Assembly: GCF_015155755.1 (NCBI RefSeq)
Contig: NZ_VWPI01000029.1
Location: 1-38,827 of the forward strand
Origin: Komagataeibacter sp. FXV3
GTDB taxonomy: Bacteria; Pseudomonadota; Alphaproteobacteria; Acetobacterales; Acetobacteraceae
Direction of reading: 5' to 3'
Length of the DNA stretch: 38,827 bases
The translations under genes were made by a program, and so were the position numbers. The first letter of the stretch is position 1. Every line of letters starts with the position of its first letter. This document shows, one piece after another, positions 2,294 through 31,466 of this stretch. The notes under the pieces are model-generated. The model saw only the letters and a list, made by a program, of their open reading frames with translations. It had not been told where the DNA came from and searched no databases.

Positions 2294-3556
2294 TTACCCC
2301 GCCTGTCCATCCATGCGGATCGGGTTGCGCACCATGGCTAGCGACAGCCCGGCCGCAATGACCAGCGCGGCGGCGCACATATACCACGCCATGTCAAAAC
2401 TGCCGGTCCATGCCACGATATATCCGGTCAGGATGGGCGACAGCAGCCCCAGCGAATTGCTGCATGTCAGCGTCACGCCGGTCACGGCGCCCATTTTCTG
2501 GCCATCTTCCACCATGTCGGTCAGCAGCGCGGTATTGGCGCCATTGGCCGCCATAAGGCAGGCCAGCGCACCCGACAGGACCAGCAGGATGGGCATCATC
2601 GTATGGAACTGCGGCAGCAGCCCGATCGTGGCGGCACCGATCAGGCAGGTGGCGACAACAAAACGGCGGGAGGGCGGATGAATGCCATTGCGGAAGACCA
2701 CATGTTCCAGCACCCGCCCGATAACGACCGCGCCAATGGCCGCGGCCAGATAGCACAGGGCCGTGCTGTTGCCGGTGCCGGTGGTGTTGATGTGCAGTTC
2801 ATGGATCAGGTACAGCGGCATCCACGACATGACCAGGAAATTCAGGTAATTCTGCGTACACTGCACCACCAGTATCCCCAGGAAGGACGACGAGCGGAAC
2901 AGGTTCCTGATTTCCCGCACGGTGATGGGCCTGCGCGGCGCGGCATCGGCCTTCCGTGCGGGGTTGCGGTACACCAGCCACCACACCAGCGCCCATGCGA
3001 TGCCCACCGCGCCCAGCGCCATGAATTCGCACCGCCACCCGAAAAAAGTAATCAGGTACGCCCCCGCGATCGTGCCACCGGCCAGCCCAAGCTGCATGCC
3101 CGTCAGCAGCACGGTCATGACCGACCCGCGTTCGCGTGGCTGCGCCCAGTTGCGCACCACGGTGGCCCCCACGCCAAAGGTCGGTGCCTCGCCCACCCCC
3201 AGCAGCACGCGCGTCAGCAGGAACTGCGTGATGTTCTGCGCCATGCCGCCCAGCAGCATGGCGAAAGACCATATGCCCACGGCAAAACTGCCGATGGCGC
3301 GCGCGCCCACCATGTCCAGCACGATGGTCGATGGCAGGTTGAGCAGGAAATACGACCACAGGAAACTGGATGAAACCCAGCCCATCTGCACCGGTGTAAG
3401 GGAAAACTCCCTGCCCATCGAAGGCAGGGCAATCGACAGCGCGGCACGGTCGCCATAGCTGATGGCGTACATCAGGAACACAAGAAAGAAAAACACGTAG
3501 CGGGCCGGAATGGCACGCCCGCTTCGTGCGTCGGTGGTCATTTCACCTGTTGTCAC
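2294..3556 (-). CDS. MFS transporter, anion:cation symporter (ACS) type
   Basis: About 420 residues with the 12-helix pattern of the major facilitator superfamily. The N-terminal helix YAISYGDRAALSIALP and the LLGVGEAPTFG segment near helix 4 are characteristic of the ACS family, whose members take up galactonate, glucarate, hexuronates and similar organic anions with protons. The start shown is GTG at 3556, preceded by AGGAG at good distance. An ATG five codons later (3541) with AGGTGA in front is an alternative. It lies between the DMT transporter gene (65 nt upstream) and the aminotransferase gene, all on the minus strand. Uptake of a carboxylate such as 5-oxoproline is attractive from context but not shown by the sequence. 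Confidence 0.85.
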   Translation of the reverse strand: MTTGEMTTDARSGRAIPARYVFFFLVFLMYAISYGDRAALSIALPSMGREFSLTPVQMGWVSSSFLWSYFLLNLPSTIVLDMVGARAIGSFAVGIWSFAMLLGGMAQNITQFLLTRVLLGVGEAPTFGVGATVVRNWAQPRERGSVMTVLLTGMQLGLAGGTIAGAYLITFFGWRCEFMALGAVGIAWALVWWLVYRNPARKADAAPRRPITVREIRNLFRSSSFLGILVVQCTQNYLNFLVMSWMPLYLIHELHINTTGTGNSTALCYLAAAIGAVVIGRVLEHVVFRNGIHPPSRRFVVATCLIGAATIGLLPQFHTMMPILLVLSGALACLMAANGANTALLTDMVEDGQKMGAVTGVTLTCSNSLGLLSPILTGYIVAWTGSFDMAWYMCAAALVIAAGLSLAMVRNPIRMDGQAG

Positions 3557-3621: not shown

Positions 3622-4545
3622 TCATGGTGGGGTGCCGGTGGCCGCGTCCATCGTGCCCTCCGCCACGGCTTTCTGCTTTGCGGGGCGGTCATGGCGCAGC
3701 ATCCACACGCCGGAGCCGATGATCAGCAGCCCGCCAATCACCATGGCGACGCCGGGTATTTCACCGAACCCGAACCACCCGATCAGCGCCGCCCACAACA
3801 GCCCGGAATAGGCAAAGGGGCCAATGGCGGACACCTGCGCCGAGGCAAAGGCCTCGGTCTGCAGGACCTGCGCGATCCCTGCAAAGGCACCGACGGCGAC
3901 AAGGCATGCGGCCTCGGTCATGCCGGGTGTGGTCCAGATGAAGGGCAGGGGCAGCGCGGTCATGAGCGTCATCAGGATTGCCTGCCACAATGCGATGGTG
4001 GTGCTGGATTCCGTGGCCGAAAGCTGGCGGATCTGCATGGTGGTCAGCGCCCCCACCGCGCCCTGCGCCAGGGCAACGAAATAGGCCCAGCCGGGCACCG
4101 CGCCGCCCGCACCATGCAGCAGCCCCTTGCCAAGGGCGACCACGATCACGCCCGAAAACCCCAGGCAGACCGCGATCCAGCGCTGCAGCGACGGCCGTTC
4201 ATGCAGCAGCGGAATGGACAGCAGCACCAGGAACAGCGGCTGCGTGTAGGACAGCACCTGCTGTTCAGCCAGCGGCAGGCGCGTCACGGTAATCACCACC
4301 ATGATCATGCTGATCAGGCCAACGACCGAACGCAGGACATGACCGCCAAAATGGCGTGTTTTCAGGACAATGCCCGTGCGCGATGCGATCAGCAGCACGA
4401 AGGGCAGGGAAAACAGGTTGCGGAAGAAAATGATTTCCAGCGCGGGCAGCGACGACCCGGTCAGTTTCTGCAGGGCATTGAGGGCGGCGGTAAAAAATGT
4501 TGCCGATGCCAGAAGAAGGGCACCACGTTTCAGGTCATGCTTCAT
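3622..4545 (-). CDS. DMT-superfamily transporter, two EamA domains
   Basis: 307 residues, about ten predicted membrane helices in two EamA repeats. The first repeat runs from about residue 10 to 140 (FFRNLFSLPFVLLIA, then LGFSGVIVVALGKG) and the second from about 155 to 290 (ending VIGGLLIIGSGVWMLR). Members of this family export amino acids, metabolites or drugs at the inner membrane, and some import. The ATG at 4545 is the only good start. The 172-nt space upstream, between this gene and pxpA, holds two perfect palindromes (4630-4647 and 4689-4703), so the gene may have its own regulated promoter. An amino-acid or lactam exporter role is a guess from the neighbours. Confidence 0.82.
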   Translation of the reverse strand: MKHDLKRGALLLASATFFTAALNALQKLTGSSLPALEIIFFRNLFSLPFVLLIASRTGIVLKTRHFGGHVLRSVVGLISMIMVVITVTRLPLAEQQVLSYTQPLFLVLLSIPLLHERPSLQRWIAVCLGFSGVIVVALGKGLLHGAGGAVPGWAYFVALAQGAVGALTTMQIRQLSATESSTTIALWQAILMTLMTALPLPFIWTTPGMTEAACLVAVGAFAGIAQVLQTEAFASAQVSAIGPFAYSGLLWAALIGWFGFGEIPGVAMVIGGLLIIGSGVWMLRHDRPAKQKAVAEGTMDAATGTPP

Positions 4546-4717: not shown

Positions 4718-5485
4718 TCAGTCCCCAAGCTGGCAGGCAGGCGTCAGCACGCCGCCACTGGCCTCGATTTCCGCACGGATGGCGCGCGCCAGTTCCAGTG
4801 ACCCCGGCGTGTCGCTGTGTACCAGAATGGACCGGGCCTTTACCGGCAGGCGCTTGCCGTCAATGGTCGTGACCGACCCGTCCTGCAGGAACTGCCTTAC
4901 ACGTGCGCGCACGCCCGCCAGGTCGTGAATGACCGCCCCTGGCTGCCCACGCGGCACCAACGTGCCCGCCGTGGTATAGGCCCGATCGGCCAGGAACAGC
5001 GTCCGTGCCCGCAGCCCGGCTTTTTCCGCCGCGCGCTCGGTCGCCTGACCGGGCATGCAGAATACACTCAGGTTCCGGTCAAGGGCGGCAATGGCCCGCG
5101 TCAGGCGCAGGGCAAGGGCTTCATCCGCATTGGCCATGTTGCCGAACGCCGCATGGTAGCTGACATGGGTGACACGGTGGCCATGGCGGGCGGCAATGCC
5201 CTGCAACGCGCCGATCTGGTAGCACATCATGGATTCCATGTCCGCGTCCGACACGGCCATGTTGCGCCGCCCGAAACCCATAAGGTCCGGCAGGCCGGGA
5301 TGGGCACCGATGCCAACGCCCTTTTCCTTCGCCATCTGCACGGTGCGGTCCATGATGGCGTAGTCACCGGCATGGAACCCGCAGGCGATATTGGCCGAAG
5401 ACACGGTATCCATCAGCCCGTCATCATCGGCAATGCGCCACCGGCCGAAGCCTTCGCCCATGTCGGAATTGAGGTCGATCTTCAT
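4718..5485 (-). CDS. pxpA: 5-oxoprolinase subunit A (LamB/YcsF family)
   Basis: 255 residues from the ATG at 5485, which overlaps the pxpC stop as ATGA. The frame is open further upstream inside pxpC, but the family's conserved start MKIDLNSDMGEGFG fixes this one. Family motifs are DLNSDMGE at 3-10, the ANIACGFHAGD segment, and HPGLPDLMGFGRR. PxpA works with PxpB and PxpC in ATP-dependent opening of 5-oxoproline (pyroglutamate), a toxic by-product of glutamine and glutathione chemistry, to glutamate. The gene is third in the translationally coupled set pxpB-pxpC-pxpA. Related YcsF-family proteins also accompany other lactam or amide carboxylases, so the exact substrate is inferred. Confidence 0.9.
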   Translation of the reverse strand: MKIDLNSDMGEGFGRWRIADDDGLMDTVSSANIACGFHAGDYAIMDRTVQMAKEKGVGIGAHPGLPDLMGFGRRNMAVSDADMESMMCYQIGALQGIAARHGHRVTHVSYHAAFGNMANADEALALRLTRAIAALDRNLSVFCMPGQATERAAEKAGLRARTLFLADRAYTTAGTLVPRGQPGAVIHDLAGVRARVRQFLQDGSVTTIDGKRLPVKARSILVHSDTPGSLELARAIRAEIEASGGVLTPACQLGD

Positions 5486-6492
5486 GCCTTGTCTCCAGAC
5501 TTGATGCCAGCGCGGCAGCGCGCGGATGTGCGGTAACGGGCGACCATCATGCGCAGGTCGTCCAGGTAGGCATCGACCGGCCGCATGGCGGCGACCCCTT
5601 CGGCAAAGCTGCATTCATGAAAGCGGATGCGCGTGCCGATCCGCGCCTGCGCCAGCCGCCACAGATCGGCTTCGATCACAGTGGCGATGCGGGGATAGCC
5701 GCCCACGGTATTGGCATCGGCCAACTGCACGATCGGCTCGCCCGCCGGTGGCACCTGCACGATACCGGCAATGACACCGTAGGAGCGCAGTTCAACCCGG
5801 TGGTGCAGTTCCAGCGGCGCGCCCGACAGGCGGTAGCCCACGCGGTTGCTCTGCGGTGTGATGCGCCATGGGGTATCCCACAGGCGCTGCCGGGATTCAG
5901 GGGTGAACAGTTCGTAATCGGTCGCCGGCATCGCGCGCAGGCTGATGACCTTCGCATCATCCTCGCGGGACACGGCATCCAGCACCGTTGCGGGGGGCAG
6001 GGCGCCGTAACCCGACACATCCAGCGTGGCCCCCGTGGTTTTCAGCGTATCGCCTGCTTCCAGCGGGCGACCGTCCAGACCACCAAAGCCGCCACGCAGC
6101 TGCGTGCTGCGCGATCCCAGCACCACGGGCACCTCGATCCCGCCCGCGATGCAGATATAGCCGCGCGCGCCCGACCTGGGTGGCCCCACGCGCAGCACCT
6201 GTCCCGCCGATACGGTTTCAACCATCCATGGCAGCATGGTGCGGCCATCGATTTCGATTGCGGCGTCAATGCCTGTCACCGCAAGGCTGGCCGGTGCGTC
6301 AAAGCGCAGCACGAAGGGATAGGTCTGCAGTTCGATACAGGCATCATCCACGGGGTTGCCCAGCAGGATATTGCCCACCCGCAGCGCAAGGGTGTCCATC
6401 ACGCCCGATGTGCCCACGCCAAGGTTGCGGTAACCGGGGCGGCCCAGATCCTGCACCGTGTTCAGGGCGGATGTTTCAAGGATGGTAATCAC
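5482..6492 (-). CDS. pxpC: 5-oxoprolinase subunit C / biotin-dependent carboxyltransferase family (AHS2, KipA-like)
   Basis: 336 residues. The opening segment TVQDLGRPGYRNLGV, then GVMDTLALRVGNILLGNP and YICIAGGIEVPVVLGSRST, are hallmark motifs of the AHS2 (KipA/YbgK) domain. In urea carboxylase the same domain forms half of the carboxyltransferase. The gene overlaps pxpB upstream and pxpA downstream by four bases each (ATGA), so the three are translationally coupled and probably act together. In 5-oxoprolinase, PxpB and PxpC form one complex. Here a biotin carboxylase and carrier are encoded divergently just beyond pxpB, so a genuine carboxyltransferase activity is worth considering. Confidence 0.9.
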   Translation of the reverse strand: MITILETSALNTVQDLGRPGYRNLGVGTSGVMDTLALRVGNILLGNPVDDACIELQTYPFVLRFDAPASLAVTGIDAAIEIDGRTMLPWMVETVSAGQVLRVGPPRSGARGYICIAGGIEVPVVLGSRSTQLRGGFGGLDGRPLEAGDTLKTTGATLDVSGYGALPPATVLDAVSREDDAKVISLRAMPATDYELFTPESRQRLWDTPWRITPQSNRVGYRLSGAPLELHHRVELRSYGVIAGIVQVPPAGEPIVQLADANTVGGYPRIATVIEADLWRLAQARIGTRIRFHECSFAEGVAAMRPVDAYLDDLRMMVARYRTSARCRAGIKSGDKA

Positions 6493-7169
6493 AGCGCGAT
6501 GCTTTCGGGATAAAAGCGGATACGGTCACCAATGGCGAACAGGGCGGGCGGCTGCCTGTCGGGATCGAACAGGTTTATGTCGGTATAGCCGATGGAATTC
6601 CACCCGTTCGGCCCTGTCAGCGCGGAAATGCCCGCCTGCATGCCGCCAATGGTGACGGTCCCGGCCAGCATGTTCAGTGATGGCACGGTCTTGCGCGGGG
6701 TGGCGATGCGCGGGTCCAGCCCGTGCAGGTAGCCAAAGCCCGGCGCGCTGCCTATGGCGCAGACGGTGTATTCACTGCCGTGGTGAATGGCGATGACCTC
6801 TTCGGGCGGCAGGCCCGCATGGGCGGCGACAGCGGCCAGGTCATTGCCCAGTTCACCGCCATAGCGTACGCCGATTTCAAACAGGCGGCCTTCGATATGC
6901 CGTTCGGGCAGGGTGTCCCATGCATGGCGCAGCCAGTCGGCCACGGCCTGCGGGCTGCCGGGGGGTGCCGCGAAGATCAGCATGAGGTTGGTCACGCCCG
7001 GAATGAGTTCGCACACATCGGGCCGTGCCTGTGCCGCGTCCATCAGTGCCCAGATCCGGCGCTGGTGGGCCATGGTGAAATCCCCCGGCGCCTCGAACAG
7101 CATGGCACGGGTGCCGATCATGCTGATGGTGGGTGCTGCACGGGTGTCGCGCGCCACGTCGTTCTTCAT
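6489..7169 (-). CDS. pxpB: 5-oxoprolinase subunit B (AHS1, KipI-like)
   Basis: 226 residues from the ATG at 7169. A TTG four codons upstream (7181) is a weaker choice. The C-terminal half has the AHS1 signature: GSAPGFGYLHGLDPRIATPR, followed by VTIGGMQAGIS and GPNGWNSIGYT. AHS1 pairs with AHS2 (PxpC) either as the PxpB-PxpC part of ATP-dependent 5-oxoprolinase or, in urea carboxylase, as the carboxyltransferase. In Bacillus the homologue KipI inhibits sporulation kinase A; that role is not expected in a genome of this type. It is the first gene of the minus-strand operon, diverging from the SDR/carboxylase operon across about 350 bp that should hold both promoters. Confidence 0.9.
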   Translation of the reverse strand: MKNDVARDTRAAPTISMIGTRAMLFEAPGDFTMAHQRRIWALMDAAQARPDVCELIPGVTNLMLIFAAPPGSPQAVADWLRHAWDTLPERHIEGRLFEIGVRYGGELGNDLAAVAAHAGLPPEEVIAIHHGSEYTVCAIGSAPGFGYLHGLDPRIATPRKTVPSLNMLAGTVTIGGMQAGISALTGPNGWNSIGYTDINLFDPDRQPPALFAIGDRIRFYPESIAL

Positions 7170-7525
7170 ATCCGTGTTCAAAATACACAGTCCCTGGAAC
7201 AGTGCTGGTCATATCCCGGAAAATGACAGGATCCGGTATCGGGCCTGAACCATGATAATACAGGTTTCGCGGCATCTGGTGCCGACGTGCAAATTATGGC
7301 CGTTTGCGTAACGATGAACAGTGCAATTCTGGTTGTATGGCTATTGGATAATCTTATGGATCAGGGTGATAGCCGGGCCATCGTATATTGTTATGGCGTG
7401 AGAACGAAGTGCTCTTGGCGCTGGCGGCACGGGGTCGGTAGCATGTAGTGAATAGCTGAGCATCCGGGATCCGTTGTGGGGCCGGGTGGGATTAGTTTCT
7501 CTGTTCAGGATCGGGTTTTCTTACC
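7170..7525. promoter_or_regulatory. Divergent promoter region between pxpB and the SDR/carboxylase operon
   Basis: About 350 bp without a convincing gene, noticeably more AT-rich than the flanks. It contains the palindrome ATAA-TC-TTAT (7348-7357) and several other ATA/TAT half-sites of the sort read by Nac-like LysR proteins. Both divergent operons must be transcribed from here. I could not fix the -35 and -10 boxes with confidence. Confidence 0.4.
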
Positions 7526-8281
7526 ATGAGCAACCAGCCGTACCGTACCGCCCTCGTCACCGGCGCATCCTCCGGCATTGGCGCGGAAATCGTCCGCCGC
7601 CTGTCAAAAGAAGGGATCGAGGTGCATGCCCTGGCGCGTGACGCGGCGCGACTGGAACAGCTGTCACGGGAAACCGGCTGCGTCGTGCATGCCGTCAGCG
7701 TATCCGACCAGGCGGGGATCGAGGCGCTGGTCAAGGGGCTGGAAATCGACATCCTGGTCAACAATGCCGGACAGTCGCGCACGGGCAACATCACCAATAC
7801 CACGCCGGAAGATATCGATGCGCTGGTTGACGTGAACCTGCGTGCGGTGCTGCAGCTGACCCGGCTGGTGGTCGCGGGCATGATCGAACGTGACCGCGGG
7901 CATATCGTCAACATCACCTCCATTGCCGGGCATTATGCCTTTGCGGGCGGCAACACGGTCTATCATGCCACCAAGGCCGGCGTGCATTCGCTGTCGCAGC
8001 AGCTGCGCTGTGACCTGTTCGGCCACCGCATCCGCGTGACCGAGGTCTCGCCCGCGCGGTGCGAAACCGAAGTGTTCGGTCGCCTGATCGGCAACATGGA
8101 AGAAGCGAAGAAGCGCTTTTTCGATGAATATGAGTCCCTGCTGCCCGAAGACATCGCCAACTCCGTCGCCTTTGCCGTCATGGCGCCGCAGCGCATGAAT
8201 GTCAGCTTCATGGAAGTGCTGCCGACCATGCAGGTGGTGGGCGGCCTGAACTTCGCCAAGAAGACGTCCGGCGCGGCGTAA
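7526..8281 (+). CDS. SDR-family NAD(P)-dependent oxidoreductase (YdfG-like)
   Basis: 251 residues, a classical short-chain dehydrogenase. TGASSGIG at 12-19 is the cofactor-binding glycine motif, NNAG is at 79-82, and the catalytic residues are S132, Y146 and K150 (YHATK). The segment after the active site (VSPARCETEVFGR) resembles the YdfG/3-hydroxy-acid (serine, malonic semialdehyde) dehydrogenase group more than FabG. It is the first gene of a plus-strand operon with a biotin carrier, biotin carboxylase and second carrier only a few bases away. A hydroxy-acid or semialdehyde step in the same catabolic route is plausible, but the substrate is unknown. Confidence 0.88.
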   Translation: MSNQPYRTALVTGASSGIGAEIVRRLSKEGIEVHALARDAARLEQLSRETGCVVHAVSVSDQAGIEALVKGLEIDILVNNAGQSRTGNITNTTPEDIDALVDVNLRAVLQLTRLVVAGMIERDRGHIVNITSIAGHYAFAGGNTVYHATKAGVHSLSQQLRCDLFGHRIRVTEVSPARCETEVFGRLIGNMEEAKKRFFDEYESLLPEDIANSVAFAVMAPQRMNVSFMEVLPTMQVVGGLNFAKKTSGAA

Positions 8282-8286
8282 GACTG

Positions 8287-8727
8287 GTGGATCTCACGTA
8301 TGTCAGGCGGCTGATCGACCTTATGGCCCATGCCCCGGTGACGGAGCTTGAGGTTGAGGAAGGTGGCTGCCGTATCCGCATCGCCCGTGGTGGTGGCACG
8401 CAGCCTGCCGCAACCCCCGCACCTGCAATCGCCGCCGTGGACACGGGCAGTGCGCCTGTGGCCACGGCCCCCGCGCCGGCAGCGCCCGTGGCGGACGCCG
8501 TCATCACGGCCCCGTCCTATGGTGTGTTCCATCTCTCGCCATCGCCCGGTGCGGCGCCCTACGTCACGGTGGGGCAGGACGTGCAGGCCGGGCAGGAAGT
8601 GGGACTGGTCGAGGCCATGAAGGTGTTCAACGCTGTCCGCACCACGCAGGCTGGCAGGATCGCCGCCGTGCTGGTGGAAGACGGCACCGAAGTGGAGGCG
8701 GGGACCCCCCTGTTCCGGCTGGCATGA
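8287..8727 (+). CDS. accB: Biotin carboxyl carrier protein
   Basis: 146 residues starting with GTG at 8287, five bases after the SDR stop. The N-terminal helix region (residues 3-33, VRRLIDLMAHAPVTELEVEEG) is typical of AccB. It is followed by a Pro/Ala-rich linker (about 38-75) and a biotinyl domain ending the protein, with the biotinylation motif EAMKVFN and target lysine K112. It carries carboxybiotin from biotin carboxylase to a carboxyltransferase. The stop overlaps the biotin carboxylase start (ATGA). Because it lies next to pxp genes and not to accA or accD, it is probably a second, dedicated carrier and not the fatty-acid AccB. The symbol is a family name only. Confidence 0.92.
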   Translation: MDLTYVRRLIDLMAHAPVTELEVEEGGCRIRIARGGGTQPAATPAPAIAAVDTGSAPVATAPAPAAPVADAVITAPSYGVFHLSPSPGAAPYVTVGQDVQAGQEVGLVEAMKVFNAVRTTQAGRIAAVLVEDGTEVEAGTPLFRLA

Positions 8728-10091
8728 GTGAGACCCCACGTTTCAACCGGGTGCTGATCGCCAATCGTGGCGAAATCGCGCTGCGTATCCAACGTGCCTG
8801 CCGCCAGCTTGGGCTGGAGACGGTGGCCGTGTATTCCGAAGCCGATGCCGACAGCCGCCATGTGCACGAGGCCGATATCGCCCTGTGCATCGGCCCGGCC
8901 GCCGCCGCGCGCAGCTATCTGGATGCTGACGGGCTGCTGCTGGCCGCCCGCCTGACCGGGGCGCAGGCCATCCATCCCGGTTACGGCTTCCTGTCGGAAA
9001 ATGCCGATTTCGCCGATGCGGTGGAGGCAGCGGGCCTGACCTTCATCGGGCCGACGGGTGCGTCGATCCGCATGATGGGCGACAAGATTACCGCCAAGCG
9101 CGCCATGCGCGACGCGGGCGTGCCGTGCGTGCCGGGATCGGACGGGCCGCTGCCCGCGGACATGGACGCGGTGAAGGCCATTGCGTCGCAGGTGGGCTTC
9201 CCGGTCATTGTCAAGGCATCGGGCGGTGGTGGCGGGCGCGGCATGCGCGTGGTCGAGCGCGAGGCCGACCTGGCGCAGGCCGTCACACTGACCGCCAAGG
9301 AAGCGCAGCAGGCATTTGGCAACCCGACGCTGTACCTTGAACGCTTCATGCAGAAGCCGCGCCATATCGAAATACAGGTGCTGTGTGACACGCACGGCAC
9401 GGCACTGTGGCTGGGGGCACGCGACTGCTCATTGCAGCGTCGCCACCAGAAGGTGCTGGAGGAGGCGTCCGCCCCCGGCATCGCACCCGAAACGATTGCC
9501 GAAATTGGCGAACGCTGCGCCGAAGCCTGCCGCCGTATCGGCTACCGTGGCGCGGGCACGTTCGAATTCCTGTATGAAGACGGCGTGTTCGCCTTCATCG
9601 AAATGAATACCCGCGTGCAGGTCGAACATCCGATTACGGAAGAAACGACAGGCATCGATATCGTGGCCGGGCAGTTGCGCGTGGCCCAGGGCGAAGCGCT
9701 GGATATCGCGCAGTCGGACATTCCGCTGCTGGGGCATTCCATCGAATGCCGCCTGAATGCGGAAGATCCGTTCACCTTCATGCCCTCGCCGGGTACCATC
9801 ACGCGCTGGGACCTGCCCGGTGGGCCGGGTATCCGGGTCGATACGCATGTTGTCGCGGGCTATACGGTGCAGCCCTATTATGACTCGCTGATCGGCAAGA
9901 TCATAAGCCATGGCGCAACCCGTGCCGAAGCCATTGCGCGGATGCAGGTGGCGCTGGCGGAAATGAAGGTGGAAGGGGTGTCAACCAATATCGCCCTGCA
10001 CCGTGACCTGCTGGCGGACCCGGATTTCCGGCATGGCGGGGTGGACATCCACTATCTTGAACGCTGGCTTGCACAGAGGACGGCCCCATGA
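8724..10091 (+). CDS. accC: Biotin carboxylase (ATP-grasp)
   Basis: 455 residues, the usual AccC length. The N-terminal domain starts RVLIANRGEIALRI. The ATP-grasp glycine loop ASGGGGGRGM is at 165-174, the bicarbonate/ATP lysine lies in RRHQKVLEE (K243), and EMNTRVQVEH (293-302) holds E293, N295, R297 and E301, which correspond to the metal and carboxylation residues of E. coli AccC. All key residues are present. It carboxylates biotin on a carrier protein using ATP and bicarbonate. Start and stop overlap the two carrier genes by four bases each, so carrier, carboxylase and second carrier should be made together. Context points to a partner other than acetyl-CoA, probably the PxpB/PxpC carboxyltransferase-like pair. 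Confidence 0.93.
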   Translation: MSETPRFNRVLIANRGEIALRIQRACRQLGLETVAVYSEADADSRHVHEADIALCIGPAAAARSYLDADGLLLAARLTGAQAIHPGYGFLSENADFADAVEAAGLTFIGPTGASIRMMGDKITAKRAMRDAGVPCVPGSDGPLPADMDAVKAIASQVGFPVIVKASGGGGGRGMRVVEREADLAQAVTLTAKEAQQAFGNPTLYLERFMQKPRHIEIQVLCDTHGTALWLGARDCSLQRRHQKVLEEASAPGIAPETIAEIGERCAEACRRIGYRGAGTFEFLYEDGVFAFIEMNTRVQVEHPITEETTGIDIVAGQLRVAQGEALDIAQSDIPLLGHSIECRLNAEDPFTFMPSPGTITRWDLPGGPGIRVDTHVVAGYTVQPYYDSLIGKIISHGATRAEAIARMQVALAEMKVEGVSTNIALHRDLLADPDFRHGGVDIHYLERWLAQRTAP

Positions 10092-10546
10092 ACAACCGGT
10101 CCGAACAGTTGGTGCCCCACTTTGACCGCCTGCCCGAACCCGAACAGATCGCGCAGATGGCGACATGGCTGGCGCAGGCGGGGCTGGACAGTCTGGAACT
10201 GACGAATGAGGCGGCGGGACTGAAGCTGCGCATCCGTGTGGGACAGGCAGGCACGGCCCCGCCCGCAGCGCAGGCCGCGGCCCCGCAGGAGGATGCCGGG
10301 GCAGGGCATGTTGCGGTAAAAACGCCCTATTTCGGTCACCTGTGCCTGACCCATCCGTCGCGCGATACGCCCTTTGCCCCGGTGGGGACAGGGGTGGCGC
10401 AGGGGGATGTGGTTGCCCTCCTGACACTGGACAGCCTGCAGGTGCCGGTTATCGCGCCGGTGGCAGGCACGGTGGTGGATGTTGTGGGACAGCCCGGCGC
10501 GCTGGTCGGATATGGCGCGACCGTCATGCACATCCAGCCCGACTGA
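10088..10546 (+). CDS. Biotin/lipoyl-like carrier protein lacking the biotin lysine
   Basis: 152 residues with the same layout as the carrier at 8287-8727. It has an N-terminal helix region (IAQMATWLAQAGLDSLELTN, then GLKLRIRVG), an Ala/Pro linker at about 53-75, and a C-terminal biotinyl-like barrel (IAPVAGTVVDVVGQPGALVGYG). At the hairpin where the target lysine should stand (EAMKM) it reads LTLDSLQVPV, so there is no lysine to biotinylate. It is coupled to the biotin carboxylase by an ATGA overlap. Probable roles are structural or regulatory in the carboxylase complex; decay of a duplicate is the alternative. The intact frame and translational coupling argue for function. Confidence 0.8.
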   Translation: MNNRSEQLVPHFDRLPEPEQIAQMATWLAQAGLDSLELTNEAAGLKLRIRVGQAGTAPPAAQAAAPQEDAGAGHVAVKTPYFGHLCLTHPSRDTPFAPVGTGVAQGDVVALLTLDSLQVPVIAPVAGTVVDVVGQPGALVGYGATVMHIQPD

Positions 10547-10847: not shown

Positions 10848-12344
10848 ATGATGAATATGCCCCCTTCGGCACCAGACGCCGCGACCTGTACCCCCGCAGG
10901 CCAGGCCCGGCCCGTGAAGCCGGGGACGGCAGTGCCCGGTCAGCGCACGGAGCGCGACCTGTTGGGCGAGGTCATCATTCCCCCCGGTGCCCTGTGGGGC
11001 GTGCATACAAAGCGCGCGCTGGATAACTTTCCCATAAGCGGCACGACGGTTGGCACGTTCGGGGAACTGGTGCAGGGACTGGTGACGGTCAAGCAGGCGG
11101 CGGCCCGGGCCAATCTTGCGCTGGGTTACCTGGATCGCACGCGCGCCGACGCCATTGAGGGCGCATGCCGGTGGATACTGGAAAATCCCGCCTGTCATGA
11201 CCAGTTTGTCGTGGACGCCATGCAGGGCGGGGCTGGCACATCGACAAACATGAACGCCAATGAGGTCATTGCCAATGTGGCCCTTGGGCTGCTGGGGGAA
11301 AAGCCGGGCACATATGCGGTGCTGCACCCCAATGACCATGTCAACATGGCGCAGTCCACCAATGACGTTTATCCGACAGCACTCCGTCTGGGCCTGTTGC
11401 TGGCGGTTGACCCGCTGGTGCGCGCCCTTGAGGGGCTGCACGGGGCGTTGGGTGAAAAGGCGGAAGCGTTTGGCGCGATCCTGAAGGTCGGCCGCACGCA
11501 GTTGCGCGATGCCGTACCCATGACCGTGGGGCAGGAATTCGGGGCGTTCCGCACGGCCATCGCCACGGAAATCAGCAGTATGAAAACCCATGCCGCAGCG
11601 TTCGAGCAGGTCAATCTGGGTGGGACGGCCATCGGGACGGGACTGAATACCGATCCGCGTTATGCATCGACCGTCATGACGGAACTGCGCCACCTGACCG
11701 GACGACCCATGGCCAGTGCGCCAGATTTGATCGAGGCGACATCGGATGTGGGCGCCTTTGTCCTGTTTTCCGGCGTGCTGAAGCGCCTGGCGCTGAAACT
11801 GTCAAAGATGTCCAGCGACCTGCGCCTGCTGTCCAGCGGGCCGCGCACGGGACTGGGTGAAATCGTGCTGCCGGCGGTGCAGGCGGGATCATCCATCATG
11901 CCGGGCAAGGTCAATCCCGTCATACCCGAAGCCGTCAATCAGGTGGCCTATCTGGTCGCGGGCCATGACATGACCATTACCATGTGTGCCGATGGCGGGC
12001 AGTTGCAGCTGAATGCGTTTGAACCGATGATTGGCTACTGCCTGTTTACATCCATCAGGACATTGCGTGCCGCCATCGAAACCCTGACCACGCGCTGCAT
12101 CAACGGTATTACCGTTGACCGGGCGCGGTGCCAGTACCTGTCGGACATCAATATCGGCATCATCACGGCGCTGGTGCCGGTGCTGGGTTACGATACGTGT
12201 TCAACCATTGCCAAGCGCGCGCTGGCGGAAAACCGCAGGGTGACGGACCTGATCGTGGAAGACGGCCTGCTTTCCCCCGAACGGCTTGCGGCCCTGCTGC
12301 GCCCCGATGCGCTGACCCGCCCCAATGTCGGGCGGGCGGGCTGA
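10848..12344 (+). CDS. aspA: Aspartate ammonia-lyase
   Basis: 498 residues. After a 35-residue Pro/Ala-rich extension the protein follows AspA closely: RTERDLLGEVIIPPGALWGVH, then GGAGTSTNMNANEVIAN, LNPNDHVN-type HPNDHVNMAQSTNDVYPTA, and the superfamily signature GSSIMPGKVNP with the catalytic serine loop. It converts aspartate to fumarate and ammonia. Fumarase C shares the fold; the N-terminal block and the C-terminal NGITVDRARC segment favour aspartase. Several ATGs cluster at 10848-10857, so the exact start is uncertain. It is convergent with the LysR gene, five bases apart. With the Pxp genes and the aminotransferase it completes a route from 5-oxoproline through glutamate and aspartate to fumarate plus ammonia. 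Confidence 0.9.
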   Translation: MMNMPPSAPDAATCTPAGQARPVKPGTAVPGQRTERDLLGEVIIPPGALWGVHTKRALDNFPISGTTVGTFGELVQGLVTVKQAAARANLALGYLDRTRADAIEGACRWILENPACHDQFVVDAMQGGAGTSTNMNANEVIANVALGLLGEKPGTYAVLHPNDHVNMAQSTNDVYPTALRLGLLLAVDPLVRALEGLHGALGEKAEAFGAILKVGRTQLRDAVPMTVGQEFGAFRTAIATEISSMKTHAAAFEQVNLGGTAIGTGLNTDPRYASTVMTELRHLTGRPMASAPDLIEATSDVGAFVLFSGVLKRLALKLSKMSSDLRLLSSGPRTGLGEIVLPAVQAGSSIMPGKVNPVIPEAVNQVAYLVAGHDMTITMCADGGQLQLNAFEPMIGYCLFTSIRTLRAAIETLTTRCINGITVDRARCQYLSDINIGIITALVPVLGYDTCSTIAKRALAENRRVTDLIVEDGLLSPERLAALLRPDALTRPNVGRAG

Positions 12345-12349
12345 ACCCG

Positions 12350-13300
12350 TCAGCCGAAAGGCTGGGCGCCGGGCCAGTTATGCGAGGCGGCCATGGCCTG
12401 GGCCAGTTCAATGAGCAGTTCGCGCACCGCGACGGACGCTTCCGTTTCAGGAATGATTTCAGGAACGCACAGTGACACGTCTTCCTGAATGACCGGGTTG
12501 CGCAGCGGGTAAATGCGCGAACGTCCCGGTACGACAATACGGCTGGCGACGGACCATGGCAGGATGGTGCTGCCAATGCCTTCCTCTATCGCGCCCTGCA
12601 AGGTAATCAGTGCCTCGATTTCCGCAACGATGCGCGGTTCAAGCTGTTTGCGCATGAAGGCCATGTCCACGCTCTTGCGGACAAAGTTGTGCCTGGGCGG
12701 CAGGAGCAGGGGCGTGTCGGCTATGTCCACCAGTTGCACCGCCCCGGTTTCATCCTGCGGGAATTCTAGCCCGTGGGGGGCGAGCAGGAAGAATTCCTCC
12801 TTCATCAGCGGGGTGAAGATAACCCCCTTGATCGGTCCCGCGCCGTGGATGACCGCCATGTCCAGCCGCCCGGTCATGATCAGTTCACTGTAGATGTCAT
12901 CAAAGCTTTCGGTCAGGTGCAGCGTGATGTTGGGCAGGCACGCGCGCACGCGCTGCAGCAGCTTGACCGACAGCGTGGACCCCGCGCTGTAGGGTGACAG
13001 CCCGACCGATACCTTGCCCACCAGCGGTCCGGCCCCCTGGGTTATTTCAACCATGGCCCGGTCGAACTGTTTGGTCAGGGTCTGCGCGTGCCGGTACAGT
13101 TCCGACCCTGCCGTGGTGGGTGTGACGCCGCTTTTACTTCTGATGACAAGTTTCTGCTTGAAGGCGTTTTCAAGCGTGGCCAGCTGCTGGCTCAACGCGG
13201 GCTGTGCAATATTCAGCAGGTCAGCCGCACGGGAAATGCTGCCAAGGTCGATGATTTTAATAAAAGCCTGCAGTCGCCGTATATCCAACTGGAACTCCAT
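12350..13300 (-). CDS. LysR-family transcriptional regulator, Nac-like
   Basis: 316 residues. The N-terminal winged helix-turn-helix (about residues 5-65) contains the recognition segment ISRAADLLNIAQPALSQQLATLE. The sequence resembles Nac (nitrogen assimilation control) closely at FIKIIDLGSISRAA, RSKSGVTPTTAG and the following KVSVGLSPYSAGSTLSVKLLQ. The effector-binding domain spans about 95-300. It reads divergently from the TonB-dependent receptor gene and convergently with aspA, so it is a natural regulator of the receptor and, by context, of the aspA/pxp/carboxylase genes. LysR proteins usually bind T-N11-A palindromes; one lies at 4689-4703. The effector is unknown. Confidence 0.87.
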   Translation of the reverse strand: MEFQLDIRRLQAFIKIIDLGSISRAADLLNIAQPALSQQLATLENAFKQKLVIRSKSGVTPTTAGSELYRHAQTLTKQFDRAMVEITQGAGPLVGKVSVGLSPYSAGSTLSVKLLQRVRACLPNITLHLTESFDDIYSELIMTGRLDMAVIHGAGPIKGVIFTPLMKEEFFLLAPHGLEFPQDETGAVQLVDIADTPLLLPPRHNFVRKSVDMAFMRKQLEPRIVAEIEALITLQGAIEEGIGSTILPWSVASRIVVPGRSRIYPLRNPVIQEDVSLCVPEIIPETEASVAVRELLIELAQAMAASHNWPGAQPFG

Positions 13301-20711: not shown

Positions 20712-20905
20712 TAACCGCTCCGGTGAGGTGGCTTTTACTTGCCCTTTCAGGGGGATGCAACCCCTGTTTTAAAAAAAATCGCATTGACCGCAAACCGGCC
20801 TCCTGTCCCTATGGCAGGCATGTGCTGTACTGCTTTCCCGCCTGTGGCCATCCGGGGCTGTCCGTGGCCGTTACCCGCGGCAAAAACGCCGTGACGGACC
20901 CCGCC

Positions 20906-21751
20906 ATGCCGCCGTTTCATATCCACCACCCCGATGGGGCGGGGACGCCCGTCATCGTGGCGTCGCCACATTCGGGCCGGAATTATCCGGCGGAATTCCT
21001 GCGTATGTCGCGGCTGGATGCACGGTCCCTGCGCCGCAGCGAGGACTGTTACGTGGATCAGCTGTTCGCATCCGCACCGGGGCGGGGTGCGACATTACTG
21101 CACGCGACCTTTCCCCGTGCCTATTGCGATGCCAACCGCGAGGCATGGGAACTTGACCCCACCATGTTCCGTGAAAAACTGCCTGACTGGTGCAATACCA
21201 CCAGCCGCAAGGTACGGGCGGGCTTTGGCACGATCGCGCGCATTGTTTCCCATGACGGGCCGATCTATCCCCGCCCGCTGCCCTTCAGCGAGGCCGAGGC
21301 CCGCATCCGCACCTGCTGGCAGCCCTATCATGATGCGCTGGCCGGTCTTGTGGCCGACAATGTGGCACGGCATGGCGGCTGTATCCTGCTGGATGCCCAT
21401 TCCATGCCCATGCTGAAGGGGCGGGGCGCACAGCCGGATTTTGTTCTGGGGAATGCGTGGGGCACGGCGTGTTCGCCGCAACTGACGGCGCTGGTGGAAC
21501 GCACGCTGCTGGCCCATGGGTACAGTGTCGCGCGCAATGTCCCGTTTGCCGGTGGCTACGTCACGCGGCATTACGGCCGCCCGCGCCGGGGCGTGCAGGC
21601 GCTGCAGCTGGAAATCTGCCGGGCGCTGTACATGGATCAGGATACACTCGCCCCCCATGCGGGCTTTACGGCATTGCAGGTCGTGCTGGGGGATCTGGTG
21701 GACCGCCTGGTACAGTATGGCGGCATGCTGGAGCAGCAGGCGGCGGAATGA
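20906..21751 (+). CDS. N-formylglutamate amidohydrolase family protein
   Basis: 281 residues from the ATG at 20906. A GTG at 20891 is possible. The frame is open back to the tRNA gene, but that part has no homology. Family motifs are VIVASPHSGRNYP near the N-terminus, the CDANREAWELDPTMF block, LLDAHSMPM (metal/catalytic histidine) in the middle and the acidic LQLEICRALYM near the end. True HutG enzymes release formate and glutamate in histidine degradation. There are no hut genes here, so it may hydrolyse another N-acylated amino acid. It converges on the yidB-like gene, whose terminator overlaps its stop codon. Confidence 0.82.
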   Translation: MPPFHIHHPDGAGTPVIVASPHSGRNYPAEFLRMSRLDARSLRRSEDCYVDQLFASAPGRGATLLHATFPRAYCDANREAWELDPTMFREKLPDWCNTTSRKVRAGFGTIARIVSHDGPIYPRPLPFSEAEARIRTCWQPYHDALAGLVADNVARHGGCILLDAHSMPMLKGRGAQPDFVLGNAWGTACSPQLTALVERTLLAHGYSVARNVPFAGGYVTRHYGRPRRGVQALQLEICRALYMDQDTLAPHAGFTALQVVLGDLVDRLVQYGGMLEQQAAE

Positions 21752-28315: not shown

Positions 28316-29665
28316 ATGATCGATATTCTGATTTGTGATGCCCACCTGTACATTGACCGCGAATGGGAGATTCCCGGCGGCTGGATCGCCATTGAAAAAG
28401 ATCGCGTCCATTCCGTCGGCGGCCCCGGACAGCCCCCGCCGCCGGCCACGCGCGTCATGAACGCGCGTGGCCGGCTGGTCACGCCCGGCCTGGTCAATGC
28501 ACACCATCATATGTACCAGAACCTGACGCGGTCCTACGCCCCCGCCACGCGGATGCGGCTGTTCCCATGGCTGCAGACCCTGTACCCGCTATGGGCCGGG
28601 CTGGATGCGGATTCCGTATTCGTCTCAAGCTATGTCGCCATGGTGGAACTGCTGATGGGGGGGTGCACCACCTCCATGGACCATATGTTCATCCATCCCC
28701 GTCCGCGTCTGATTGACGAACAGTTCCGTGCCGCGCGTGAAATCGGTTTCCGCTTTTATGCAACCCGTGGCAGCATGACGCGCGCGCAGGAAGATGGCGG
28801 CCTGCCCCCCACCGCCGTGGTTCAGGACGAAGACACGATCATGGCCGACTGCGAACGGCTGGCCAGCACGTACCATGATCCCGGCCCGGGCGCGATGGGG
28901 CGGGTGGCGCTGGGTCCGGTTTCGCTGTTTTCGGCATCCGAAGGGATCATGCGCAAATCCCTCGCCATGGCCGAACGGCTCGACCTGCGCCTGCATACCC
29001 ACCTGGCCGAGGATATGGAGGAGGACGATTACTGCCTGAGCCTGTACGGCTGCACCCCCACCGAACAGTTCGAGCGCATGGGCTGGGCCTGTCCGCGCAC
29101 GTGGGTGGCGCATTACATCTATCCCTCGTCATCGGAAATCGACCGCATTGCGGATGCCGGGGTCAGCGTGGTGCAGTGCCCCAGTTCCAACATGATGATC
29201 GGCGGTGGCAGCGCCGATGCGCTGGACATGCGCGAGCGGGGCATCCGCGTGGGCCTTGGCTGCAACGGGTCGGCCACGACGGACCATGCCTCCATGTGGA
29301 TGGAAACGCGCAACGCCATGCTGCTGGGCCGCATAAGCCACGGCCCGCAGGCCATGGGCGCGCGTGAGGCGCTGGACATGGCAACCCGTGGCGGGGCCGC
29401 CTGCCTGGGCTGGGAAGACGAGATCGGGCACCTCCGCCCCGGCGCGTGCGCCGATCTTGTGATCTGGCATGCAAGTGACGTGGCGCTGGCCGGCGCCCTG
29501 ACCGACCCGGTGGAGGCATGGCTGCGCTGTGGCCCCACCGTGGCGGGGACCACCATCGTGGCGGGAAGGGTGCTGGTGGAAAACTGCGAACCCACGATGG
29601 CGGGCCTGGGCGACATGCTGCGTGAACATACGCGGCAGGCACGGCGGATACAGCAGCTGGACTGA
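28316..29665 (+). CDS. Amidohydrolase, 8-oxoguanine deaminase / AtzB-like
   Basis: 449 residues, a metal-dependent cytosine-deaminase-like amidohydrolase. PGLVNAHHHMYQNLTRS contains the first metal histidines and is the form seen in 8-oxoguanine and isoguanine deaminases. HTHLAED gives the next histidine and glutamate, WVAHYIYPSSSEI the third histidine, and LGCNGSATTDHASM the catalytic aspartate region (NGSASND type). It probably removes the amino group of an oxidised purine such as 8-oxoguanine, giving urate. A triazine or other aminoheterocycle is also possible. It begins a plus-strand group with an oxygenase, a hydrolase and a BMP-type binding protein, and a guanine deaminase lies 7 kb away. 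Confidence 0.86.
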   Translation: MIDILICDAHLYIDREWEIPGGWIAIEKDRVHSVGGPGQPPPPATRVMNARGRLVTPGLVNAHHHMYQNLTRSYAPATRMRLFPWLQTLYPLWAGLDADSVFVSSYVAMVELLMGGCTTSMDHMFIHPRPRLIDEQFRAAREIGFRFYATRGSMTRAQEDGGLPPTAVVQDEDTIMADCERLASTYHDPGPGAMGRVALGPVSLFSASEGIMRKSLAMAERLDLRLHTHLAEDMEEDDYCLSLYGCTPTEQFERMGWACPRTWVAHYIYPSSSEIDRIADAGVSVVQCPSSNMMIGGGSADALDMRERGIRVGLGCNGSATTDHASMWMETRNAMLLGRISHGPQAMGAREALDMATRGGAACLGWEDEIGHLRPGACADLVIWHASDVALAGALTDPVEAWLRCGPTVAGTTIVAGRVLVENCEPTMAGLGDMLREHTRQARRIQQLD

Positions 29666-29737
29666 TATCCGCCGCGGGGGCGCGTGTGCCCCCGGGGGCC
29701 GCTATCCAGTATCAATCCATACCGGGGGATATCCGTC

Positions 29738-30712
29738 ATGTCACAGCACCCATCCTGCGCGGCGGGACAACGGCTGCCTGTCATTTCCATCGCGGGCCTG
29801 TTTGATCCGGACCCTGCCGCGCGTCGTGCGGTGGGGGCGGCGCTGCATGCCGCCTGCCGGGACATGGGCTTTTTCTACTGTGCCGACCACCGGATCCCGC
29901 CGGACCTGATCGCGGCGGTATTCGAACAGTCGCGCCGTTTCTTCGCGTTGCCCGAAGCGGACAGGCGGGCGCTGGACAAGGGGCGTTCCCCCTGCAACCG
30001 GGGGTATGAACCCCTGCGCGACCAGACGCTGGAACCCGGCACGCCACCGGACCTGAAGGAAGGGTTCTATATCGGCCCGGAAAAGCCGTTATGTGATCCC
30101 GCCGTCATGGCCGGGCGGTTCAACCAGGGGCCAAACCAGTGGCCCGCGATGCTGCCCGAATTCCGGCCGGTCATGATGACCTACAGCGCCGCCATGACCC
30201 GGCTTGCGGAAACCCTCATGCAGGGGATCGCGCTGTCGCTTAACCTGCCGGAGGACTATTTCGCCACCTTCTGCCATGATCCGCTGACCACGCTGCGCCT
30301 GCTGCACTACCCGCCGCAGCCCGCACGGCCCCTGCCGGGGGAAAAGGGGGCGGGCGCACATACCGATTTTGGCGGCCTGACCCTGCTGCTGCAGGATGAC
30401 AGTGGTGGCCTGCAGGTTCGTGCGCCCGACGGGAACTGGGTGGACGCCACCCCCATCGCGGGCACCTTTGTCGTCAACCTGGGCGATATGATCGCGCGCT
30501 GGACCAATAACCGCTACCGTTCCACGCTGCACCGGGTCATCAATACGTCGGGGCGGGAACGGTATTCGGTGCCGTTCTTCCATACCGGCAACCCCGATCA
30601 GGTCATCAGCTGCCTGCCCGGCTGCGTACCGGCAGGGGAGGCGCCATTGTGGCCACCCGTTACGGTGGAAGATCACCTGCGCGCGATGTACACCCGGACC
30701 TATGGCCGATGA
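29738..30712 (+). CDS. Fe(II)/2-oxoglutarate-dependent oxygenase (isopenicillin-N-synthase family)
   Basis: 324 residues from the ATG at 29738, preceded by GGGGGA at 29723-29728. The N-terminal DIOX_N-like domain starts RLPVISIAGLFDPDP. The C-terminal jelly-roll has the iron triad AHTDFGGLTLL (H and D) and STLHRVIN (H), and RYSVPFF carries the arginine-x-serine that binds 2-oxoglutarate. It hydroxylates or oxidises a small molecule. In this group of genes a purine or other N-heterocycle is the best guess. It overlaps the next gene by four bases (ATGA). Confidence 0.9.
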   Translation: MSQHPSCAAGQRLPVISIAGLFDPDPAARRAVGAALHAACRDMGFFYCADHRIPPDLIAAVFEQSRRFFALPEADRRALDKGRSPCNRGYEPLRDQTLEPGTPPDLKEGFYIGPEKPLCDPAVMAGRFNQGPNQWPAMLPEFRPVMMTYSAAMTRLAETLMQGIALSLNLPEDYFATFCHDPLTTLRLLHYPPQPARPLPGEKGAGAHTDFGGLTLLLQDDSGGLQVRAPDGNWVDATPIAGTFVVNLGDMIARWTNNRYRSTLHRVINTSGRERYSVPFFHTGNPDQVISCLPGCVPAGEAPLWPPVTVEDHLRAMYTRTYGR

Positions 30713-31461
30713 CCCGGCCAGATCCCGTCATCCTGATCCACGGCGCATGGCAGGGCAGCTGGGTATGGGACCGCTTCCTTGCGGCCTGGCAGCGGCGTAC
30801 CGACATTTGCGCCCATGCGGTCGACCTGCCGGGCAACGGGGCGGATGGCACGCCCGCGCGCGACGCCACGCTTGGCCGCTATGTGGACCATGTGGGCGCG
30901 GTCATGGACCGGCTGGGGGCGGCATCGGTCAGCCTTGTCGCCCATTCCGGCGGCGGGGTTGTCGCGTCCGCCGTGGCGGAACGGTTTGCCGGCCGGGTGC
31001 GGCGCATTGCCTATCTGGCCGGGATGATGCTGCCCGATGGCATGGGCTTCGGGCAGGCGGTGGAACAGGTGCTGCCTGACCACCCGCAGGCAGCTGGCAT
31101 CAACCCCTACCTGCGCTGGCCCGAACCGGACGTCGTATCGGTCGTGCCGCCGGAAGCGGCGGTGGCGGTCTTCCTGCATGACTGCCCGGCGGATGTGGCC
31201 ATTGCCGCATCCCTCCGCCTGACACCACAGGGGATCCATGGGCTGGACCTGCGCGCGCGCCTGACGGCGGGGCGCTTCGGGCAGGTGCCGCGCCTGTATG
31301 TCGAGGCAACGGAGGACCGTTCCGTCATCCTGCCGGTCCAGCGCCGGATGCAGGCCCTTGTGCCCGGCGCGCAGGTGGTTACCATGCATACCGGCCATGC
31401 CCCGCAGGTGGCGGACCCTGAGGGTACGGTTGCGCACCTTCTGCCCTTTATTGAAGGATAA
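30709..31461 (+). CDS. Alpha/beta-hydrolase, plant MES/hydroxynitrile-lyase-like
   Basis: 250 residues from the ATG at 30709, which overlaps the oxygenase stop. VILIHGAWQGSWVWDRF is the oxyanion-hole region, AHSGGGVVAS the nucleophile elbow (G-H/S-x-S-x-G type with catalytic serine), VEATEDRSVILP the acid, and HTGHAPQ the catalytic histidine. It resembles the methylesterase, salicylate-binding and pyrethroid-hydrolase branch. Possible jobs are to open a lactone or lactam or hydrolyse an ester produced by the oxygenase. The substrate is unknown. Confidence 0.85.
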   Translation: MTRPDPVILIHGAWQGSWVWDRFLAAWQRRTDICAHAVDLPGNGADGTPARDATLGRYVDHVGAVMDRLGAASVSLVAHSGGGVVASAVAERFAGRVRRIAYLAGMMLPDGMGFGQAVEQVLPDHPQAAGINPYLRWPEPDVVSVVPPEAAVAVFLHDCPADVAIAASLRLTPQGIHGLDLRARLTAGRFGQVPRLYVEATEDRSVILPVQRRMQALVPGAQVVTMHTGHAPQVADPEGTVAHLLPFIEG

Positions 31462-31466
31462 CATGC

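Follow-up and report, generated by a model that had tools for sequence, protein, structure and literature searches.

A pxpBCA and biotin carboxylase locus of Komagataeibacter as a probable dedicated biotin-dependent carboxylase-hydrolase

The contig NZ_VWPI01000029.1 of Komagataeibacter sp. FXV3 (assembly GCF_015155755.1), a stretch of 38,827 nucleotides analysed as a whole and termed the window here, carries the genes of a PxpABC-type protein set beside genes for a biotin carboxylase (BC) and its carrier. The set is named after the prokaryotic 5-oxoprolinase PxpABC, which we take to be YbgJ/YbgK/YbgL in Escherichia coli and KipI/KipA/YcsF in Bacillus subtilis. On the minus strand lie pxpB (6489-7181), whose product matches CT_C_D (carboxyltransferase subdomains C and D) with 213 bits, pxpC (5482-6492, GTG start; CT_A_B, carboxyltransferase subdomains A and B, 292 bits), and pxpA (4718-5485), which encodes a LamB/YcsF family hydrolase of 255 aa (LamB_YcsF, 306 bits). 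A gap of 344 bp, put at about 350 bp in the original prediction, separates them from the plus-strand genes of a short-chain dehydrogenase/reductase (SDR) oxidoreductase (7526-8281), the biotin carboxyl carrier protein (BCCP) AccB1 (8287-8727; Biotin_lipoyl, 59 bits), the biotin carboxylase AccC (8724-10091), and the BCCP-like AccB2 (10088-10546; Biotin_lipoyl, 27 bits). The SDR gene ends 5 bp before accB1 and has relatives in other arrangements of the module. Family models and gene coordinates placed all seven genes where they had been predicted. The claimed coupling by ATGA overlaps was found at accB1/accC, accC/accB2, and pxpC/pxpA, while pxpB and pxpC overlap by GTGA instead.

The six genes other than the SDR gene, referred to below as the six-gene set, are kept together well beyond this genome. 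A scan with the PxpB of the window, whose closest match among the relatives scanned is from K. europaeus (96%), returned 61 named loci from Acetobacteraceae, Rhizobiaceae, and neighbours, and at 57 of them all six genes were inside the fetched stretch, so the neighbourhood is conserved. As for the other four, L100 has the six genes inside about 16 kb, L110 lies on a contig of 5 kb, accB1-accC-accB2 begin another contig in the genome of L091, and the contig of L098 carries L136 as a second copy. Even where the order is rearranged, and in different families, the acc pair remains with pxpBC. The reading that acc and pxp genes are a single unit is supported. On plasmid p1 of Bradyrhizobium sp. 62B (L074, 3746-10912), pxpA faces the rest of the six-gene set from the opposite strand and is followed, on that strand, by a second pxpC-pxpB pair.

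Genome samples drawn at two taxonomic levels gave a broader view of this linkage. At the order level, a CT_A_B match was found in 11 of 40 genomes, and the intact stand-alone loci (eight in seven genomes, the two of the window's own genome included and the urea-carboxylase-like ones left out) were all acc-linked. The sole unlinked locus of this sample (L042, G025 C1:1726000-1743000) has broken pxpA and pxpC frames and a truncated pxpB; no acc genes are linked to it, and both biotin carboxylase matches that its genome gave lie elsewhere, a state that looks like joint decay. The phylum sample of 120 genomes yielded CT_A_B matches in 34. The 47 matches comprised two from the window's genome, 30 fetched as stand-alone loci, one fragment (G043) that was dropped, and 14 in open frames longer than 1100 aa, regarded as fused urea carboxylases, one of which (L043) was used as reference. 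Eleven of the 30 stand-alone loci have a biotin carboxylase gene no more than about 8 kb away, which exceeds the chance expectation of about 1.5% per locus obtained by simple arithmetic for 7 biotin carboxylase genes in a 7.8-Mb genome.

The inventory of the genome is consistent with a dedicated carboxylase. Three biotin carboxylases were found, namely the canonical one (contig C37, with aroQ and accB), that of the window, and one on contig C165, together with one AccA, one AccD, and two CT_A_B/CT_C_D pairs, and no carboxyltransferase of the pyruvate/oxaloacetate type was found in the genome. The window's genes are therefore not its only accB/accC pair, since a separate canonical aroQ-accB-accC plus accA and accD exist, and the AccC of the window, with only 58% identity to the canonical copy, is distinct from it. 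This AccC carries Biotin_carb_N (146.6 bits), ATP-grasp (246.1), and Biotin_carb_C (136.4) domains and passes the accC equivalog TIGR00514 (650.8 bits, cut-off 626.5). Each urea-carboxylase-type pair is thus matched by a carboxylase and a carrier of its own, and among the families searched there is no other unassigned transferase for the carboxylase of the window. The second pair, which belongs to a distant lineage (the C165 type), repeats the acc-Pxp pairing in the same genome: C165 ends with pxpA-accB-accC and a part of pxpB, C87 starts with the other part of pxpB followed by pxpC, and the two ends probably adjoin. In this more urea-carboxylase-like cluster (L019, G000 C165:1-8000; L018, C87), a LysR gene is divergent to pxpA-accB-accC-pxpB, and pxpC is followed by genes for a TonB receptor and biotin synthase (bioB).

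The two BCCP-like proteins differ at the residue that would bear biotin. AccB1 has an intact biotin motif, EAMKV, with Lys112 (codon 8620-8622), and its biotinylation is predicted from this motif; the motif is lost in AccB2, where Ser116 (codon 10433-10435, within TLDSLQVP) aligns with Lys112. In an alignment of 21 BCCP-like rows, E(A/V)MK is present in the 12 accB1-type rows, among which the canonical AccB is counted, and absent from the nine accB2-type rows. EAMK occurs in every accB1 found across the 61 loci, with EVMK in the separate C165 cluster and ESMK in the rearranged L100 locus as variants, and none of 61 accB2 sequences, that of the window among them, has a lysine at or beside the biotinyl column. 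What had been predicted to be a second carrier is accordingly a lysine-less paralogue. Both proteins score below the BCCP equivalog TIGR00531 (cut-off 115.2; accB1 108.7, accB2 28.3, canonical copy 115.3). Against seven relatives, the ratio of nonsynonymous to synonymous substitution rates of accB2 (0.16-0.30) is near that of accB1 (0.17-0.25), which marks accB2 as a real gene; its product retains Leu-x-Gly-x-Gly near the C-terminal end as well as BCCP-like N-terminal positions. AccB2 may be a scaffold or docking subunit joining carboxylase and transferase.

A tree of the joined PxpB and PxpC domains was built by a quick method with Shimodaira-Hasegawa-like approximate likelihood ratio (SH-aLRT) support only and a urea carboxylase root. 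It holds 57 rows, with 15 of the 64 loci L074-L137 used, L042 left out, and L100 and L136 labelled as six-gene although the set lies outside their fetched stretch. The six-gene clade (24 rows, support 99) has as its sister pair L051, without acc genes, and L054, acc-linked and outside the class of the window (joint clade of 26 rows, support 99). Loci with fused BC and BCCP form another clade (6 rows, support 100), and the C165-type clade (4 rows, support 100) is closest to the root. By this placement, acc linkage is spread over three lineages. The BC-BCCP fusion was seen inside the Pxp operons of plasmid loci L144-L149; it was surveyed at 12 loci, of which six were picked from the 25 records listed of 456 matching. 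Clusters such as those of Eleftheria terrae (L149) and Aureimonas sp. AU20 (L148) combine, like the window, PxpA, carboxyltransferase, and biotin carboxylase, here in one operon, and the biotinyl motif [ED]AMKM was present in six loci checked for it. Unlike in the window, the biotin carboxylase is fused to the BCCP, PxpB and PxpC form one protein in most, accB2 was not observed, and aminotransferase and SDR genes occur at none of the 12 loci. A D-glutamate cyclase gene stands beside the operon in L145, L146, and L148, and genes for pyroglutamyl peptidase and DUF969/DUF979 proteins in L144 and L149.

PxpA passes NF003814 (336 bits, cut-off 226) and PxpB passes TIGR00370 (174, cut-off 146), whereas PxpC reaches 284 of the 500 bits of the PxpC equivalog NF045499. 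In PxpA, Ser109, Ala112, Leu163, and Leu221 replace Lys, Gly, Glu, and Cys; the former four residues occur in 94-97% of 68 six-gene PxpA sequences and the latter in all 27 PxpA of three other groups, the PxpA of L054 being left out of both, and Leu165 and Ser224 are likewise unlike most sequences. With its PxpC below the equivalog cut-off and its PxpA residues altered, the set falls outside the PxpABC 5-oxoprolinases. By family model it is not a urea carboxylase either, since the single-chain model TIGR02712 (1303.85 bits) is far from reached by accC (493.8) and pxpC (168.5). PxpC is predicted, from sequence and structure modelling, to have the carboxyltransferase fold, and the locus holds a carboxyltransferase of known type, as a biotin-dependent carboxylase requires. 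In PxpB, TPRKTVP occupies the position of the urea carboxylase motif TTKYNP, which contains K1605 of Kluyveromyces lactis urea amidolyase, described in PMC5770610 as the likeliest general base; where urea carboxylase reads TKYNP, the C165-type lineage has PKYxxP and the window type PRKTVP. This lysine was considered as a single residue diagnostic of biotin dependence and set aside, because the other acc-linked PxpB and the acc-less PxpB have Arg in common there. A search for conserved differences that tell six-gene from unlinked sequences gave one such position in PxpB and one in PxpC.

Compared with PxpABC, the window thus adds its own biotin carboxylase, a carrier, and a lysine-less BCCP paralogue. 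Compared with urea carboxylase, as in K. lactis urea amidolyase (5I8I/3VA7) and the bacterial fused enzymes, its proteins are separate, PxpA is present, and the lysine motif is not identical. The predicted complete urea-carboxylase-like machine holds as biotin carboxylase, BCCP, and carboxyltransferase, but a scan that covered part of the window's open reading frames turned up no allophanate hydrolase. A PxpBC-type pair, MSMEG_0435-MSMEG_0436 of Mycobacterium smegmatis, shares one structure with the BC-BCCP protein AccA3 (Protein Data Bank 9YX5, released 2025-11-26), for which a literature search on the entry code found no paper. That entry is a long chain acyl-CoA carboxylase complex with a shared AccA3 and no chain matching PxpA, whereas the window has a dedicated AccC and AccB1 as well as PxpA. 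Caprolactamase CapAB and OplAB open lactams with ATP and require bicarbonate (PMC8453981, PMC11033972); in the portions of these accounts examined they have an actin-like ATPase motif, are stated to be dissimilar to PxpABC, and have no biotin part described. Among the literature matches listed, no proposal of biotin dependence for PxpABC was found. In a comparison of L. pentosus with L. plantarum, pxpB and pxpC appear with an extra BC/BCCP, the latter read as acetyl-CoA carboxylase in the excerpt available (PMC12427679). In public annotation, such a PxpC is called a "biotin-dependent carboxyltransferase family protein" and accB2 a "biotin/lipoyl-containing protein" or "acetyl-CoA carboxylase", so the idea is hinted at without a stated function.

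With these parts, their conservation, and the gene inventory observed, the locus probably encodes a dedicated biotin-dependent carboxylase-hydrolase that works like urea carboxylase, the ring being activated by CO2 and not by phosphate. We infer that the proteins form a complex in which AccC would carboxylate biotin on AccB1 using ATP and bicarbonate, and PxpB-PxpC, as a split urea-carboxylase-type carboxyltransferase, would transfer the carboxyl group onto a lactam or amide, at the nitrogen (or oxygen) of its ring. PxpA would hydrolyse the activated amide bond, and the N-carboxy product would then lose CO2, so that ATP would drive an otherwise uphill ring opening. AccB2 may tether carboxylase to transferase as a structural subunit, and the neighbouring aminotransferase may receive the product amino acid. 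Several observations weigh against this proposal. Of the 30 stand-alone loci of the phylum sample, 19 have no acc gene in the surrounding 8 kb or so, which means that a protein with this fold can function when no carboxylase is linked to it; the 61 loci are relatives by design, having been found via the PxpB of the window, and many are close kin; and the assembly consists of 208 contigs, so a transferase gene could have been missed. PxpA differs at residues that never vary across the other lineages sampled. Only the C165-type lineage matches the urea carboxylase lysine exactly, the window having Arg in that column with Lys next to it, and the register at K1605 differs between two alignments, one of which sets Lys against Lys in a relative. 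PxpBC is assumed to phosphorylate 5-oxoproline in the part of PMC13274462 available, and no bicarbonate need of bacterial 5-oxoprolinase is reported in the portions seen of PMC13274462, PMC8453981, and PMC11033972. Moreover, because the host of the pair in 9YX5 is an acyl-CoA carboxylase complex, that pair might be a regulator instead of its transferase.

Some of these points favour an ordinary phosphorylating PxpABC 5-oxoprolinase whose accB-accC neighbours would be a co-regulated acetyl-CoA carboxylase half serving AccA and AccD. Phosphorylation is the published assumption (PMC13274462, as far as its accessible text goes), pxpABC loci without acc genes are common, and PxpA, PxpB, and AccC all score above their family cut-offs. 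This explanation is nevertheless unlikely, as the genome already has the canonical genes for acetyl-CoA carboxylase, the acc pair is kept with pxpBC through rearrangements and families and the pairing recurs in a distant lineage, and PxpC falls short of its equivalog. If the substrate of the carboxylase were instead a urea-like, ureido, or guanidino compound, with PxpA as carboxy-amide hydrolase, the likeness of fold and parts to urea carboxylase, the adjoining Nac-type nitrogen regulator, and the PxpA changes would be in keeping; yet such a substrate appears improbable given that none of the window proteins scanned is an allophanate hydrolase, that the exact urea carboxylase lysine belongs to the other lineage, and that PxpA is of a 5-oxoprolinase subunit family whose sister clusters often have pyroglutamate genes. 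It is very improbable that PxpBC is a regulator bound to biotin carboxylase, diverting or inhibiting acyl-CoA carboxylation while PxpA acts alone: the pair in 9YX5 and the name kinase A inhibitor carried by KipI, a solved relative of PxpB, speak for it, but one would hardly expect regulation to be aimed at a dedicated, non-canonical AccB-AccC, and pxpA is ATGA-coupled to pxpC and kept in the set.

A wider version of the carboxylase-hydrolase proposal, held tentatively and as rather doubtful, is that PxpABC in general works in this way and not by phosphorylation, lineages that possess a BC and BCCP employing these, and the acc-less sets of E. coli and B. subtilis borrowing a housekeeping or shared BC-BCCP as MSMEG_0435-0436 may do with AccA3. 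Component A of the Pseudomonas putida 5-oxoprolinase, given as 64 and 51 kDa in the part of PMC8453981 seen, would in that case consist of a BC-BCCP and a fused PxpB-PxpC; the comparison uses sizes alone, those of L144 being 60.5 and 55.6 kDa, with 51 against 55.6 kDa a loose fit.

The neighbouring genes bear on the substrate. Downstream of pxpA and on its strand follow genes for an EamA transporter (3622-4545) and a major facilitator superfamily (MFS) transporter (2294-3556), both present in most Acetobacteraceae loci, and then an aspartate-transaminase-like aminotransferase (955-2157), a conserved partner that is 66% to its R. leguminosarum and 70% to its Bradyrhizobium sp. 62B counterpart. 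Beyond accB2 lie genes for an aspartate ammonia-lyase family protein (10848-12344, plus strand), a neighbour in most Acetobacteraceae loci, and a Nac-like LysR regulator (12350-13300, minus strand; 297 bits, cut-off 309, against 329 for the rhizobial neighbour in L138). Across 70 loci of the six-gene lineage, the aminotransferase occurs in 68 and the SDR in 64, an RraA-type protein in eight (the flanks often being too short to reveal one), and D-glutamate cyclase and pyroglutamyl peptidase in none. The 12 BC-BCCP-fused loci have D-glutamate cyclase in five and pyroglutamyl peptidase in two (7/12 together), and the 19 unlinked loci have neither aminotransferase nor SDR; D-glutamate cyclase is present at one of the latter (L060) and is thus not special to acc-linked clusters. 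The aminotransferase, SDR, Nac-like regulator, and RraA were tried as guides to the substrate and indicated an amino acid product without naming one, and indole-acetate, opine, and hydantoin pathways were considered and provisionally set aside. Since the PxpA residues differ and aminotransferase and SDR replace the pyroglutamate genes that part of a sister lineage has, another lactam or amide is at least as likely as 5-oxoproline, which itself has about an even chance. The favoured substrate, by the neighbour genes of the lineage and the PxpA changes, would be a pyroglutamate-like lactam or amide giving a dicarboxylic amino acid, and in Acetobacteraceae the aminotransferase and aspartase could free ammonium from glutamate.

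Elsewhere in the window, an N-formylglutamate amidohydrolase family protein (PF05013) is encoded at 20723-21751, about 10 kb off the module. Two amidohydrolase-family proteins, a 2-oxoglutarate (2OG)-Fe(II) oxygenase, and a Bmp/PnrA-type binding protein are encoded at 28316-32615 and 36595-37968, perhaps as a nucleobase-type catabolic locus.

In vinegar bacteria and rhizobia, the PxpABC genes are accompanied by a biotin carboxylase and carrier of their own. Whether stand-alone urea-carboxylase-type transferases partner other biotin carboxylases or act otherwise was asked in 2011, in the part of that study available (PMC3199775), and three acc-linked lineages together with one genome that has two of them make the question testable. 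If the proposal is true, biotin-dependent carboxylation would acquire a new use, to power the hydrolysis of lactams or amides, the BCCP paralogue without the lysine would represent a kind of carboxylase subunit undescribed as far as the literature examined goes, and many genes labelled 5-oxoprolinase or acetyl-CoA carboxylase would be misnamed.

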